A program made the translations under genes and the position numbers. Positions 28,816-34,410 of a stretch of 64,000 bases of DNA are shown one piece after another. Positions within the stretch are counted from its first letter, which is position 1; every line of letters starts with the position of its first letter. The stretch is from Winogradskyella marincola (GTDB lineage Bacteria > Bacteroidota > Bacteroidia > Flavobacteriales > Flavobacteriaceae): contig NZ_JARSBN010000003.1 in the NCBI RefSeq assembly GCF_029624125.1, forward strand, positions 437,466 to 501,465. The letters are read 5' to 3'. A model generated the notes under the pieces. The model worked only from the letters and a program-made list of their open reading frames with translations, did no database searches and was not told where the DNA came from.

Positions 28816-29976
28816 TTATTTCAAACTCTTCAAAATAAAATCTAAGTTAGGATTGGTATTATCATTAACCACATAAGCATCTGTATAATACTTTGGTCGT
28901 ATTGCTAAACCTAAATCTATCAATTTATTCATTGTAGGTATATATTCCTGACTAACTTTACCTGTTAAAAGAATACCTAAATCATTTCCGGATTTAGCAT
29001 ATTTGTAAATGTTTCTAATGCCTTTAAGGTATAAATGGTCTTTTGTAAAACCACCTCCTCTGTGTACTCTAAGCGTTATTGCATAAGCCTTATCTCGGTT
29101 TAGCTTGTGCTGATTGTGTAGCAAATGAAATGTGTCAGAAAAATTATAGCCTTTATTGAGACTATCTACAGCAATTACTCTAAAAGCCAACTCTTTTAAA
29201 CGCTCAATTGTTAAGCAACCACTCATAAATTCTGAAAACACAGCTAATCCTTCCTGAGTTTCTACATTATTAGGTAAACCATTAGAAAACACCTTTAAAG
29301 GTTGTATTAAACCATTAAATGTAGTTACCATGTGTACTCCAATCTCATGGTTAGACAGAACTTTAAGTTGATTTAGACTGTACTTATGGCTTTTTCTCAA
29401 CACTAAGGTTTGTGTATTGTTGAGCACCATTGCAGCTGCAGAAAGATTGTTTGAAATCTTTATGTTGTACTTAAAGTCATAACGCTTAGAAAACGTGTCA
29501 AAATAATCTTTCGCTTCACTTGCGTTATACATCGGAAGCATTTCTTCGTCAAACTCAGAATCATCAAAACGAAGAATAAATTTTGCGTTTTCTATATCTT
29601 TCTCTGTTGGTGTGCCATAGCTTTTAAGACTGTTGTAGTAAAATTTACGACCCTGACCAATAGTCTCTATACATTCTATTAACCCAGAATATTCGTAAAT
29701 AATATCTTCATACAATTGTCTAATATCATCATCTTCTATTCGCTCTAAACGTTGCGAAAAAAATAAGCGATGTAATTTATAGCCATTAAATCGCATTTTA
29801 GGATAATTAAACTCTGGCTCATAATTGTACTTTGCTGAAAAAAACTTTTTCTTTTCAGCAGCAATATTCTGAGGATTTATATAGTTGAGTAATTCAATAT
29901 TCTTTACCAATCGATTAAGATTGGCATCAATATCAAACAAATCTTGAAATTCTTGTGTCGTTTTTATTTGAGACAT
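28816..29976 (-). CDS. QEGLA-motif (DUF1704) metallopeptidase-like protein
   Basis: This 386-residue cytoplasmic protein is of the DUF1704/TIGR02421 type ('flavohemoglobin expression-modulating QEGLA motif'). The zinc-site-like HEIGVH lies at 210-215 ('LSNHEIGVHMVTTFNG') and the naming motif QEGLA at 241-245, whose Glu242 could be the third ligand. The family is related to eukaryotic KIAA0895-type (MATCAP) tyrosine carboxypeptidases, so peptide cleavage is plausible; the bacterial substrate is unknown. Its ATG overlaps the stop of the amidohydrolase gene by one base, and it ends the leftward operon. Confidence 0.88.
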   Translation of the reverse strand: MSQIKTTQEFQDLFDIDANLNRLVKNIELLNYINPQNIAAEKKKFFSAKYNYEPEFNYPKMRFNGYKLHRLFFSQRLERIEDDDIRQLYEDIIYEYSGLIECIETIGQGRKFYYNSLKSYGTPTEKDIENAKFILRFDDSEFDEEMLPMYNASEAKDYFDTFSKRYDFKYNIKISNNLSAAAMVLNNTQTLVLRKSHKYSLNQLKVLSNHEIGVHMVTTFNGLIQPLKVFSNGLPNNVETQEGLAVFSEFMSGCLTIERLKELAFRVIAVDSLNKGYNFSDTFHLLHNQHKLNRDKAYAITLRVHRGGGFTKDHLYLKGIRNIYKYAKSGNDLGILLTGKVSQEYIPTMNKLIDLGLAIRPKYYTDAYVVNDNTNPNLDFILKSLK

Positions 29977-30806
29977 TAGGCCTTAAACTTTCTGTAAAAT
30001 TCGTCTGCGTGCTTAGGTATTAAAACTTTTAATTGTTGTTCAACTGCAGCAACAACTTCAGGATAAATAACCTGTTTATACTCATCGCAGTAAACCTTAG
30101 CTATTTCGGTTGCCAAAACTAAAGTATTTTCAAAAGTATTGGTAATGAATTTTAAGAAATATCCATTTCCCTGAAAGGTGTCATTAACCTTTGCTGTTTG
30201 TTTTATATCATGAGGCAACTCAATACTTGCCAGCATTTGTCTCCAAGATTCTACCTGCTCTCCAAAACGAGTATTATCTATATTAGAGGTTCCTAAATTC
30301 CAAGTTGGCACTTCCCTATCCCAACGCTGCCAATTATAGCTATGCATGTCGTAGACTATGCATACACCAAATTTTTCTTCAATCTTAGAAATTAAAGCTT
30401 TTACGACTTGGTAAAAATTAGCATGCTTTTGTAGGCTTTTGGTTTTATCTGTTTTAGGTAAAGGGCTTTTCCAAAGTTGTTTTCCCCAAGCTGTATCAAA
30501 AACAGCATTACTGGGATCTCTATTAAGATCATATTCAAACCTAGAATCGCAACCAGAAATTAAGATTGGGTGAGAAATAATCATGTTTTTAGTTTCAGGA
30601 TCTTCCTCGTACCATCTATCATATTCGGTGTGCAGGCAATTATCCCAAAGCTCTTGTCTAAATTGGTGTCCATCATGCACAGCTCCACATACATAAGGCA
30701 CGTATTTATCTACCTTTAAAGTGAAAGAATAATCATCAGAAACAGCATGAAAGGTCTCTTCTGCCTCAATTTTAGCTATAATTTCATGTATTGAAAGTCG
30801 ATCCAT
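29976..30806 (-). CDS. N-formylglutamate amidohydrolase family protein
   Basis: The 276-residue protein has the FGase pattern: an N-terminal region with 'CGAVHDGHQFRQELW', 'SHPILISGCDSRFEYDLNRD', 'IVYDMHSYNWQRW' and 'DTFQGNGYFLKFI'. The His and Asp/Glu residues in these blocks are candidate zinc ligands. Classical members release formate from N-formylglutamate in histidine breakdown, but no hut gene is near. Next to an ATP-grasp ligase and a peptidase it more likely hydrolyses another glutamyl or acyl amide (inference). It starts on the TerB-like gene's stop (TAATG) and overlaps the next gene in the same way. Confidence 0.85.
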   Translation of the reverse strand: MDRLSIHEIIAKIEAEETFHAVSDDYSFTLKVDKYVPYVCGAVHDGHQFRQELWDNCLHTEYDRWYEEDPETKNMIISHPILISGCDSRFEYDLNRDPSNAVFDTAWGKQLWKSPLPKTDKTKSLQKHANFYQVVKALISKIEEKFGVCIVYDMHSYNWQRWDREVPTWNLGTSNIDNTRFGEQVESWRQMLASIELPHDIKQTAKVNDTFQGNGYFLKFITNTFENTLVLATEIAKVYCDEYKQVIYPEVVAAVEQQLKVLIPKHADEFYRKFKA

Positions 30807-31141
30807 TACAAAGTTTTAAAGAGTCGTTCTAATGATTTAAGCATATTACGCTCATTGATATTAAATTCGCCATCTGAAAAGAATAGTATTTTTATATCTT
30901 CTAGTAAAATCTCAACATCTTCTCTATCGTAATTATGTTGACGCAGACTGGTCATAATTTTCTGAATACCTTGATAATCGTTGTCTTTATCAAACTCATC
31001 ATGTATGTCTTGAAACGTATTCATATCTACTTTAGAGATAATGACATTGCGTTCATGATTATCTTCTTTAAAATCTGAATGTGCAGCAAAAAGTAAAATA
31101 TATGCTACAAGTTCGTCTCTGGTCCAGTCAATTGTTTTCAT
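30806..31141 (-). CDS. Small TerB-like helical protein
   Basis: This 111-residue, acidic, all-helical protein has the pattern 'LVAYILLFAAHSDFKEDNHE' near the front and 'ILFFSDGEFNINERNMLKSL' near the end. Both resemble the acidic turns of TerB/DjlA-type domains ('ADGxIsxxE'), so metal or partner binding is possible. The assignment is tentative. It is translationally coupled to the amidohydrolase by a one-base overlap and sits 57 bp after the sulfurtransferase gene. Confidence 0.7.
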   Translation of the reverse strand: MKTIDWTRDELVAYILLFAAHSDFKEDNHERNVIISKVDMNTFQDIHDEFDKDNDYQGIQKIMTSLRQHNYDREDVEILLEDIKILFFSDGEFNINERNMLKSLERLFKTL

Positions 31142-31198
31142 AATATTATCTGCAATAGCAGGCTTCTTTTTTTAGTTATATTATTTAAGTATTAAACA

Positions 31199-31999
31199 TT
31201 ACGGTTTCAATGTTCCATATTCCGTCCAAGAACCATCATAGACAACAAGATTTTTATAACCACATTGTGTTGCTGCTAAAGCTAAAATACATGCTGTAAT
31301 TCCTGAGCCACAGCTAAACACTATTCTTGTTGTTTGCTCTACTAAGTTATCAAAGATTTTTAAAAGTTGGACTTTAGATTTTAAAATATTACCATCAAAT
31401 AGTTCGGTGTAAGGCAGATTTTTTGAATTTGGAATAGTACCTCGTCTTAAGCCTTCTCTTGGTTCATCTACCAAACATTGAAACCTAAGTGAAGAGCGTG
31501 CATCTAAAATTTGAGTTTTATCGTCCTTAGAAAACTGATTAACACCTTTAAAATCTGTCATTAATTCTGGTTGAAAACTAGAGGTAAAATTTCCTTTATC
31601 AATAGATTCTTCTTTGTATGTTTCTATTGGAAAATTTTGCTTTTTCCATTCTGGCAAACCTCCATCTAAAACAGCAACGTTATTAAAACCAAAAGTTTTG
31701 AATAACCACCAGGCTCTGGCAGAAGAATAAATACCCTTATCGTCATAAACAACAATGAAAGAATCGTTATTTATACCTAAAGTTCTTGCCTCAGTTTCAA
31801 ATTGTAGAGCACTAGGCAAAGTACTTGGAAAGGTCGCTTCTATATCACTAAACTTCTGTTTTATATCAAAAAAACGAGCGTCGGGAATTCTTTCAGAATC
31901 CTCATCTATCTGTTTGTTAATTGTAGCATCTAATAGTACTAGACCAGACAATTGAAGATTAGAATGTAACCATTCTACTGAAACCAAAGCGGATTGCAT
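31199..31999 (-). CDS. Thiosulfate/3-mercaptopyruvate sulfurtransferase (tandem rhodanese)
   Basis: The enzyme has about 266 residues from the ATG at 31999, 4 bp after the ATP-grasp stop; longer starts would overlap that gene. It has two rhodanese domains: an inactive N-terminal one ('VVYDDKGIYSSARAWWLFKT', 'VAVLDGGLPEWKK') and a catalytic C-terminal one with the loop CGSGITAC. That loop resembles 3-mercaptopyruvate sulfurtransferase (CG[S/T]GVTA) more than thiosulfate rhodanese (CRKGVTA). It should transfer sulfur to thiols or proteins. Its place in the ligase/hydrolase run may link the pathway to cysteine or glutathione-like thiols (inference). Confidence 0.88.
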   Translation of the reverse strand: MQSALVSVEWLHSNLQLSGLVLLDATINKQIDEDSERIPDARFFDIKQKFSDIEATFPSTLPSALQFETEARTLGINNDSFIVVYDDKGIYSSARAWWLFKTFGFNNVAVLDGGLPEWKKQNFPIETYKEESIDKGNFTSSFQPELMTDFKGVNQFSKDDKTQILDARSSLRFQCLVDEPREGLRRGTIPNSKNLPYTELFDGNILKSKVQLLKIFDNLVEQTTRIVFSCGSGITACILALAATQCGYKNLVVYDGSWTEYGTLKP

Positions 32000-32003
32000 A
32001 ATA

Positions 32004-33044
32004 CTACGCTTCATCCACAGTTTTACGTAGTCTAGTACGTCTATCAAAAGCTTGAAGTTTATCGAGCACCTTACTCTCTAAGAAGTCTATCACTTTTTCT
32101 TCAACCTTCGTTTTATTTTTATAAACTTTATTGATATATGTGATTCCTCCAGGTGACATTACATTAACCTCAACCAATTTACCACCTATAACATCGATGC
32201 CTACAAAATAAAGACCGTCTTTAACCAATTTTGGTCCTATTTGTTTACAAAGTGCTTTCTCTGCTTTAGTAAGTGAGTGTTTTTGTACTGAGCCTCCTGC
32301 AGTAACATTAGACCTATGATCGTCTGAACCAGGAACACGTTTCATGGCACCTACAGGTTCTCCATTTAGCATTAAGATTCTTACATCGCCTTGGTCTGCA
32401 CCTTCTATATAATCTTGTAATATCACATAATTAGAAGTACCATCAGAATTAGATATATAAAAATCTAACAATGAATTAATGTTGCTCATTGCTGACTTTT
32501 CAATCAAAATAACACCAGAACCACCAAAACCGTTTAGTGGTTTAATGATCATTTTATCTGCTTTAGATTCTTTTATCTGACGTACTAGATACCTCTTATT
32601 TTTAGACACATGTGTGTTAGGAATAATATTACTATGTGCATCACCAAATGCTGCTGTGTATAACTTATTGTTTGCTTCTCTCATGCCTTGCAATGAGTTA
32701 ACAATAAACACATCATCTTTTACAGAGTCTAAAAAATTAAGCATTATTGGGTCTAAAGGTGGATTTGCTCTAAAGAAAATAGCATCAAAACCTGCCAAAG
32801 GCAACATCTCCTCTCTTAATTTCACCTTATTATAAAATGACTTTAGCGTAGAAGGGACTTTATCCATTCTACCTATAACATTGCAAAACGCATTTGTTAC
32901 ACTATCTCTAATAGTAAGATTTGCTGGTGTACACATAGCCACACCATGGCCTCTCTTAGCGCATTCTTTTATTAAAGCTAAAGTGGTATCATTTTCAGGA
33001 TCTATAGTTTCCCAAGGATACATTATGAAGCAGATATTCATCAA
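32004..33044 (-). CDS. Glutathione-synthetase-like ATP-grasp ligase
   Basis: The 346-residue protein has the prokaryotic GSH-synthase plan. An N-terminal Rossmann-like domain (1 to about 120, 'MNICFIMYPWETIDPENDTT', 'AIFFRANPPLDP') precedes an ATP-grasp domain with 'KMIIKPLNGFGGSGVILIEK' (nucleotide-binding Lys and Gly loop), 'QDYIEGADQGDVRILMLNG', and the metal-site ending 'GKLVEVNVMSPGGITYINKV'. It joins a carboxylate to an amine at the cost of ATP. No gamma-glutamylcysteine ligase is adjacent, so true glutathione synthesis is unproven and another amide product is possible. The sulfurtransferase follows after 4 bp, and a symporter gene lies 58 bp upstream. Confidence 0.85.
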   Translation of the reverse strand: MMNICFIMYPWETIDPENDTTLALIKECAKRGHGVAMCTPANLTIRDSVTNAFCNVIGRMDKVPSTLKSFYNKVKLREEMLPLAGFDAIFFRANPPLDPIMLNFLDSVKDDVFIVNSLQGMREANNKLYTAAFGDAHSNIIPNTHVSKNKRYLVRQIKESKADKMIIKPLNGFGGSGVILIEKSAMSNINSLLDFYISNSDGTSNYVILQDYIEGADQGDVRILMLNGEPVGAMKRVPGSDDHRSNVTAGGSVQKHSLTKAEKALCKQIGPKLVKDGLYFVGIDVIGGKLVEVNVMSPGGITYINKVYKNKTKVEEKVIDFLESKVLDKLQAFDRRTRLRKTVDEA

Positions 33045-33102: not shown

Positions 33103-34410
33103 TTATTTTACAGCATCAAAGTTGTCATCCCATTCCTTAGGTTTAGGTTCATGAAGTTTATTTTGAGATTTTGCGACAAGCATAGAAACAGAAGCATCTC
33201 CAGTAACATTAATGACTGTTCTGCACATATCTAAAGGTCTATCTACCGCAAATATTAATGCTAATCCTGCTTCTGGTATTCCTGCATAACCTAGTACACC
33301 AACTAACATAACCATTCCTGCACCAGGAACAGCAGCAGAACCTATAGATGCCAATGTAGCTGTAGCAATTATGCCTAACTGAGTACCAAACGTTAAATCA
33401 ATACCAAAAGCCTGTGCTATAAATAATGCAGCAACAGCTTGATATAGACTTGTGCCATCCATATTTATAGTAGCTCCTACAGGTAATACAAAACTTGCAA
33501 CATCTTCGTCTACACCAAGATGTTCTGTAACTCTTTCCATCGTTACCGGAAGTGTAGCTGCGCTACTACTTGTTGAGAATGCTAACAATTGTGCTGGTGA
33601 AATTCCATTTAAAAAGAATTTTGGTGATCGTTTTGTAAATAAACGAACAGCTGACACATAAATTATAACCATGATGAGTAGGCCGCCAATAACAGAAAGC
33701 GCATACATTGCCAACGCAGCAAACAAGTCTGCACTCGGTGATTCTACAACTAATGCTGCCAATAAAGCAAATACACCATATGGTGCTGCGAGCATTATAA
33801 GATCAACCATTTTTAAAATAACATCATTAACTCCATCAAAAAAGTCCTTAACCGGTTTTCCTTTTTCTTCTGGAATAAGAATCAATGAAATACCAAAAAA
33901 TACCGCAAAGAAAATAACTTGAAGCATATTGCTATTGCTTCTGGCTGCTTCAAAAATATTATCAGGAACTAAATCTACAAGTGGCTGAAGCGGCCCTTTG
34001 TTTTGTTGCTCCATATTTGCTTCTTTTTTTGCAGCTGCATCTGCTGCATAAGCCTCTACAAGTTCGTTTCTGGTTTCTTCTGTTATAGTCTCACCAGGTT
34101 TTACCAGGTTAACAACAATCAGTCCTATGGATACAGCAATAACAGTGGTTAACACATAGGTTATTATTGTTCTGCTTCCCATTTTAGAGAGGCTAGAAAT
34201 GTCTTTTAGATCGGTAATTCCTTTAATTAAAGCAGCCAAAATTAAAGGTATAGCTATCAATTTAAGAGAATTAATAAAAATAGTTCCAAACGGTTTTATC
34301 CAATCTTTTACAAATTGTGCTCCCCATTCAAAATTTATCATTAAAAGTGCAAAAAGCACTCCTAAAACCATTCCTATAATAATCTTCCAGTGTAATGCTA
34401 GTTTCTTCAT
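33103..34410 (-). CDS. Dicarboxylate/amino acid:cation symporter (DAACS family)
   Basis: The 435-residue inner-membrane carrier has 8 transmembrane segments and two re-entrant loops. The Ser-rich loop 'LAFSTSSSAATLPVTMERV' and the cation-site NMDGT ('LPVGATINMDGTSLYQA') identify the GltP/GltT/DctA family. It imports glutamate, aspartate or C4-dicarboxylates with Na+ or H+. It lies in the same leftward run as the ATP-grasp ligase (58 bp gap), so it could supply an acidic substrate to it (inference). An Ala/Glu/Lys-rich cytoplasmic or periplasmic insertion is seen at about 115-150. Confidence 0.92.
   Translation of the reverse strand: MKKLALHWKIIIGMVLGVLFALLMINFEWGAQFVKDWIKPFGTIFINSLKLIAIPLILAALIKGITDLKDISSLSKMGSRTIITYVLTTVIAVSIGLIVVNLVKPGETITEETRNELVEAYAADAAAKKEANMEQQNKGPLQPLVDLVPDNIFEAARSNSNMLQVIFFAVFFGISLILIPEEKGKPVKDFFDGVNDVILKMVDLIMLAAPYGVFALLAALVVESPSADLFAALAMYALSVIGGLLIMVIIYVSAVRLFTKRSPKFFLNGISPAQLLAFSTSSSAATLPVTMERVTEHLGVDEDVASFVLPVGATINMDGTSLYQAVAALFIAQAFGIDLTFGTQLGIIATATLASIGSAAVPGAGMVMLVGVLGYAGIPEAGLALIFAVDRPLDMCRTVINVTGDASVSMLVAKSQNKLHEPKPKEWDDNFDAVK

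Follow-up and report, generated by a model that had tools for sequence, protein, structure and literature searches.

Within a 64-kb stretch of the Winogradskyella marincola genome (hereafter the window, meaning the whole stretch that was analyzed), five minus-strand genes at 28816-33044 include a conserved trio: a GshB-fold ATP-grasp ligase of clade GSHS1 (345 aa, 32004-33041), a zinc hydrolase of M14 fold resembling N-formylglutamate amidohydrolase (FGase; clade FG1, 276 aa, 29976-30806) and a short-type relative of the MATCAP/QEGLA metallocarboxypeptidases (QEGLA; 386 aa, 28816-29976). We found this ligase linked to the two metallo-hydrolases repeatedly in Bacteroidota and Pseudomonadota, beyond what a local accident would give; the trio forms a system of three genes to which accessories are added, and its interest goes beyond this one locus. 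On balance, we favor a make-and-trim amide system whose product is not glutathione but probably a small acidic peptide. The computed basis for this consists of the protein families, folds, conserved catalytic motifs, three-gene linkage, FGase-QEGLA fusions and the lack of any tested GshA family, from which we infer substrate, product, direction of the steps and role of the trio.

Among 198 genomes drawn from the phylum Bacteroidota, the QEGLA family PF08014 is present in 12. The NCBIfam model NF009110, which describes the window ligase best (459.4 bits, cut-off 408), had 84 matches at E ≤ 0.001, and its strong copies (at least 396 bits, the next scoring 215) number 13 in 11 genomes, 10 of which pass the model cut-off. 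All 11 strong-ligase genomes fall among the 12 with PF08014, and in each the ligase shares contig and strand with QEGLA and is within 5 kb of it, an overlap of genomes with p of about 3e-17 by counting alone, which is overstated since the genomes are related. The FGase family PF05013 matches 28 of the 198 genomes, and in 10 of the 11 an FGase gene adjoins the ligase-QEGLA pair. The twelfth PF08014 genome (G186) carries a QEGLA from another clade, without ligase or FGase neighbors. The set is patchy even within one genus (g3), where one genome (G088) has the trio and another (G029) has neither a PF08014 match nor a strong ligase.

The same arrangement was seen around QEGLA genes of named relatives, for which we took the best 80 of 572 confirmed matches, hence close relatives only. 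Ligase, FGase and QEGLA are kept together at 76 of these 80 loci. One locus (L041) is cut by a contig end, leaving FGase and QEGLA visible, and three (L076 (Flagellimonas), L089 and L100 (Arenibacter)) keep an upstream symporter and QEGLA, with ligase and FGase both gone. The genomes of these three have no strong ligase (99 bits at most) and no FGase anywhere, while two control genomes were positive for both. At these three loci the gap lies upstream of QEGLA at about 7.97 kb, in a site that is otherwise conserved. A sequence-only reading of the window had suggested a make-and-cut system of all five genes and proposed looking for their co-occurrence in Bacteroidota: ligase, FGase and QEGLA do occur together, and as neighbors in more than this genus, while the other two genes are patchy, and the glutamyl, thiol-containing or protein-tail product offered there was conjecture.

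Outside Bacteroidota, we found QEGLA relatives in 127 of 72,556 plasmid records and opened 12 regions around QEGLA genes, with genes taken from annotation or open reading frames (ORFs), a sample that gives no genome-wide rate for Pseudomonadota. All eight rhizobial loci have the order FGase, long QEGLA, ligase. In Photobacterium DA100, a ligase 60% identical to that of the window overlaps a gene in which FGase and QEGLA are fused; such fusions were seen in one Bacteroidota genome (L016) and two Vibrionaceae (Photobacterium and Vibrio). The Photobacterium fusion, with its ligase beside it, retains 13 of 13 FGase positions checked. The fusion of Vibrio HDW18 (L104:5122-7113, plus strand) is changed at FGase positions 47, 69, 155 and 156, and its 599-kb replicon, the only one scanned, has no NF009110 match. 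Taken with the double loss at the three Bacteroidota loci, this suggests that loss of the ligase goes with loss or damage of FGase. QEGLA with no ligase or FGase nearby is seen in Legionella adelaidensis and Pseudoalteromonas.

The partners also go together by subtype. Short QEGLA, as in the window, pairs with GSHS1 ligases and FG1 FGases, and long QEGLA (about 610-670 aa) pairs with GSHS2, together with FG2 in rhizobia and at L019, L021 and L022; L023 lacks FGase, and GSHS1, FG1, long QEGLA and GSHS2 occur together at L017 and L018. The N-terminal region of long QEGLA, about 235 residues, has no sequence match in the PDB and none to the QEGLA profile. In single hhalign comparisons it matched a mixed FGase alignment at 91.4% (E 8.8e-7) and the 83 FG1 sequences at 96.3% (E 1.2e-9), with 11 other profiles at 0.3% or less. 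FG1 residue H44 and the segment S88-R96 fall in gaps of the long-type alignment, and H155 and E234 stand opposite other residues in L017. Judged by these alignments, long QEGLA seems to be an old fusion of FGase with QEGLA, in which the FGase half would be catalytically dead. Given the fusions, the gene order and this FGase-like domain, FGase and QEGLA probably work in contact.

Is the ligase simply a glutathione synthetase? It has both GshB domains (PF02955, 185.3 bits; PF02951, 85.5 bits) and the fold, a PDB search led to E. coli glutathione synthetase (1gsa, E 1.7e-38), and it passes the glutathione synthase model NF003573 (284.5 bits, cut-off 272). Residues invariant across GSHS1, GSHS2 and two GshB sequences include the ATP-grasp core, and ‘glutathione synthase’ is the name that annotators and authors give such genes. 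The resemblance noted in the sequence-only reading is real as far as domains and fold go, but the ligase misses TIGR01380 (235.2 bits, cut-off 299), and GSHS1, GSHS2 and the GshB set (made up of two genes annotated gshB and one that is GshB-like) form three separate clades, in an unrooted tree where, as in that of QEGLA, long branches meet. Among the positions that the two gshB products have in common and that neither GSHS group keeps is the SPT-loop Thr, which is Gly (SPG) in all 22 GSHS1 and GSHS2 sequences. The gamma-glutamylcysteine ligase families PF04262, PF04107 and PF08886 have no match in the whole W. marincola genome (the PF08886 test is soft, as its controls scored only below cut-off), which bears out for these three families the absence suspected from the window, and PF04262 occurs in none of the 198 Bacteroidota genomes. 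BshC is a bacillithiol enzyme, and the genome has a strong one (458.6 bits). Because none of the three GshA families was found, BshC is present and the ligase stands in a clade apart from GshB, it is probably not a glutathione synthetase here. That it is a plain one after all, with an unrecognized partner or imported gamma-glutamylcysteine and next to hydrolases whose function is unrelated, we regard as very improbable; no partner from the three families tested came to light elsewhere in the genome.

The window FGase passes PF05013 (48.6 bits, cut-off 28.9), and a sequence search of the PDB gave no relative. Its model, built from an alignment of 54 sequences (pLDDT 92.8), superimposes on the N-formylglutamate amidohydrolase 2q7s with Z 23.7 (rmsd 2.4 over 237 residues), followed by 2odf (Z 21.3); an insect carboxypeptidase, 2c1c, aligns with Z 12.5 (rmsd 3.9 over 209 residues), and further matches are succinylglutamate desuccinylase (Z 10.9), Csd4 (10.8) and poly-gamma-glutamate hydrolase (10.4). 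The protein therefore has the fold common to FGases and M14 carboxypeptidases. Fold and motif positions are shared with 2q7s and HutG, but at 18.4 bits it lies far below the HutG equivalog cut-off (278.75) and is outside any hut cluster; a HutG role was rejected for its score and genomic context. The earlier statement that hut genes are lacking is right locally, but the genome does hold a HutH-family gene elsewhere (L122:9378-10913, plus strand), with no hut cluster evident around it, other hut families not having been searched. In Brucella, a predicted stress sigma-factor site is reported to precede an N-formylglutamate amidohydrolase gene (PMC8315932).

The window QEGLA matches PF08014 at 337.4 bits (cut-off 27) and falls under the TIGR02421 QEGLA equivalog cut-off (318.9 against 338.65 bits), which the Photobacterium fusion (459.9) and an Aminobacter long type (354.3) pass. 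Residues H210, E211, H215, E242 and G243 (HEIGVH and QEG) are invariant across 11 sequences, and the family profile searched against the PDB finds human MATCAP (KIAA0895-like; 7z5g) at E 4.8e-16. Bacterial MATCAP/QEGLA proteins have so far been named from an effect on flavohemoglobin expression. Human and bacterial proteins share PF08014 and a HExxxH motif with EG as third-ligand motif; the window QEGLA differs in being bacterial, with no tubulin tail to act on, in its fixed ligase and FGase partners and in an identity of about 30% or less. MATCAP/TMCP1 is reported to take C-terminal residues off tubulin (PMC10499314).

In the make-and-trim system that we favor, the ligase would activate a carboxylate and join it to an amino group, most likely giving a small peptide or amino-acid conjugate that is probably acidic or glutamyl; GshB-fold ligases form amides through an acyl phosphate. 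The FGase-like hydrolase and the MATCAP-type carboxypeptidase, whose catalytic motifs are intact in the window, would be a coupled pair for trimming or recycling bonds of this type. The simplest account has one amide product shared by all three enzymes, with the ligase making it and the pair trimming or recycling it. We favor a small acidic peptide, given that the families of two of the three enzymes include members acting on small molecules and that we found no gene for a precursor. The main rival is a protein-tail cycle, which we consider possible though unlikely: the ligase would add an amino acid to a protein, at its C-terminal tail or on a side chain, and the two enzymes of carboxypeptidase type would remove it, as TTL/TTLL, CCP and MATCAP do on tubulin and RimK/RimB on a ribosomal protein. 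CCP enzymes have the M14 fold, as does the window FGase. The homology of QEGLA to the tubulin-tail trimmer MATCAP/TMCP1 (PMC10499314) and the bacterial ligase-protease precedent of RimK/RimB (PMC11957791) speak for such a cycle, and the lack of a precursor peptide gene beside the trio means that a target protein could be encoded elsewhere. Against it, known members of the ligase and FGase families act on small molecules (1gsa, 2q7s), and the ligase keeps the GshB residues that are invariant in our set.

RimK/RimB is also one of the nearest known parallels. RimK and RimB polyglutamylate S6 and remove that modification, and a fused RimBK is reported (PMC11957791); in both systems an ATP-grasp ligase stands with an unrelated hydrolase that undoes, or would undo, its addition, and each has fusions, RimBK there and FGase-QEGLA here. 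The trio ligase differs in belonging to the GshB clades, missing both RimK models (TIGR00768, 89.7 bits, cut-off 143.4; PRK10446, 42.1 bits, cut-off 331), and has PF05013 and PF08014 proteins as neighbors in place of a RimB retropepsin-like protease. By analogy, the trio may work like a RimK/RimB-type ligase-hydrolase pair from outside that family. The idea of ATP-grasp ligases beside unrelated peptidases is shared with the amidoligase-peptidase networks that Iyer and others reportedly predicted in 2009.

Expression data may come from Photobacterium damselae RM-71, where RNA-seq at 1% versus 3% NaCl reported A0J47_RS17020 (‘Glutathione synthase GshB’) 38.4-fold up and A0J47_RS17025 (‘QEGLA motif protein’) 27.5-fold up (PMC10308900). 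The authors discuss the former as a true GshB; since their tags follow one another and Photobacterium DA100 has its ligase next to the fused gene, these two genes are likely the ligase and the fusion. As 888 genes are up in that dataset, the co-induction is only suggestive. It would fit, as speculation, a scheme in which osmotically active free amino acids are packed into a smaller number of peptide molecules. The same table has RimK 52-fold and a Na+/H+-dicarboxylate symporter, a different one from that of the trio loci, 7.8-fold up (PMC10308900). In the window, an SDF-family dicarboxylate/glutamate symporter gene (33103-34410, minus strand; PF00375, 415.1 bits) lies upstream of the ligase, and an SDF symporter is found upstream at 63 of the 80 loci. 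These symporters, together with the mostly catabolic nature of FGase and its structural neighbors (2q7s, succinylglutamate desuccinylase), would suit an operon for scavenging or detoxification that runs mainly toward breakdown: the hydrolases would degrade acyl-amino acids or peptides, and a fragment would be re-capped or recycled by the ligase. We hold this to be decidedly unlikely, as it leaves unexplained both the linkage of an ATP-using ligase in 11 of 11 genomes and its loss together with FGase. The symporter, moreover, stays at the three loci where ligase and FGase are gone, for which reason it may be linked by position alone.

Several observations weigh against the make-and-trim system. 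One Bacteroidota genome (G053) has a long QEGLA and a ligase with no FGase, QEGLA persists without both partners at 3 of the 80 loci, and a lone GSHS2 ligase occurs in Ensifer, in a region opened for its ligase; the paired loss of ligase and FGase could be one contiguous deletion per lineage. A separate QEGLA clade, at L013, L115 and L116, has neither partner. The N-terminus of the long type matches neither FG2 nor FG3, and the seven rhizobial N-termini, when compared by themselves, match none of the FGase groups. To these are added the passing score of the window ligase in a glutathione synthase model and the P. damselae genes, which locus tag and product name only suggest to be the ligase and fusion (PMC10308900).

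With the trio, bacterial MATCAP/QEGLA proteins gain fixed enzymatic partners and hence testable substrates, and our results suggest another function for the ‘glutathione synthase’ genes of some Bacteroidota, of rhizobia and of Photobacterium, among them probably the gene highlighted in the P. damselae salinity study (PMC10308900). The product, once found, would add a small peptide or a protein modification to those known, perhaps one connected with changing salinity, and would bear on the origins of tubulin-trimming enzymes. A bolder extension, which we think quite unlikely, is that the trio corresponds in bacteria to the tubulin-tail write-and-trim toolkit, which may even have evolved from it: ligase, MATCAP-type peptidase and M14-fold carboxypeptidase would form one reversible end-modification system acting on a salinity-responsive acidic peptide or protein tail new to science, and a catalytically dead FGase domain would be the fixed docking half of the long MATCAP proteins. 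In the open-licence literature searched, we recognized no description of a ligase-FGase-QEGLA trio, subscription papers being outside the scope of the search.

Other candidate explanations were examined and set aside. The surroundings of the trio have 473 short ORFs. The 25 common to most loci are all located downstream of QEGLA and resemble shadow frames of the following genes, speaking against a ribosomal precursor peptide. A phage or defence system was rejected, with no PHROG match for four proteins, no PADLOC match for five and no relative in one scan of viral contigs for QEGLA. The Bacteroidota-type promoter motif has 7 matches in a 4-kb stretch, against 7.2 expected.

The two remaining genes of the five encode a rhodanese-family sulfurtransferase (266 aa, 31199-31999) and a small all-helical protein (111 aa, 30806-31141). 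The former is found at 29 of the 80 loci, the latter at 22 and both at 17, and for this patchiness a five-gene system was rejected; they accompany the trio as accessories at some of the Flavobacteriaceae loci examined. In Winogradskyella luteola, an unrelated 276-aa protein with a hydrophobic N-terminus fills the sulfurtransferase slot (L029:5988-6818, plus strand). With these genes only accessories, a thiol-containing product, which had been suggested from the sulfur-transfer enzyme, has no special support. The window sulfurtransferase meets PF00581 and stays under the cut-off of the 3-mercaptopyruvate sulfurtransferase model NF008557 (214.5 against 250 bits). The smaller protein is weakly TerB-like: it has no Pfam match, its model (pLDDT 90.4) has six helices, and the nearest fold is PG1108 (2h5n) at a Foldseek E of 0.11. 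TerB (PF05099) is matched by 3 of 13 family members, at best E 0.0089, and the L020 copy scores 16.9 bits against a cut-off of 24.4.

All five ORFs were verified on the minus strand, and the right-to-left order in the window is SDF symporter, ligase, sulfurtransferase, small helical protein, FGase, QEGLA. The tight packing described from the letters is exact once likely starts are used, namely an ATG at 33041 for the ligase, one codon past the listed TTG and the same choice as in relatives, and an ATG at 31999 for the sulfurtransferase: a 4-bp gap separates these two genes and a 57-bp gap the sulfurtransferase from the TerB-like gene, and the two junctions on either side of FGase are one-base TAATG overlaps. 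PF02951, PF02955 and PF00581 pass their Pfam cut-offs, as do PF05013 and PF08014, and the HEIGVH, QEGLA, SHPILISG and DMHSYN motifs are all found in the window proteins. Among the matches listed, the closest named relatives of the window QEGLA are from Winogradskyella, with 94% identity in L024.

We also came across other possible ligase-peptidase sets. Four Bacteroidota genomes have four adjacent genes for a peptidase (about 231-245 aa) and a carboxylate-amine ligase (about 415 aa) that we take from their motifs to be C39-like and GCS2-like, respectively, a RimK-like ATP-grasp protein (about 487 aa) and an FG3 FGase (L117:5701-9818 and L118:6072-10174, minus strand; L119:5094-9192 and L120:4226-8351, plus strand). 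On a Desulfocapsa plasmid (L125:4001-7681, plus strand), a gene annotated as GshB-like is directly followed by genes annotated as a C45-family peptidase and a radical SAM protein, perhaps another such set.

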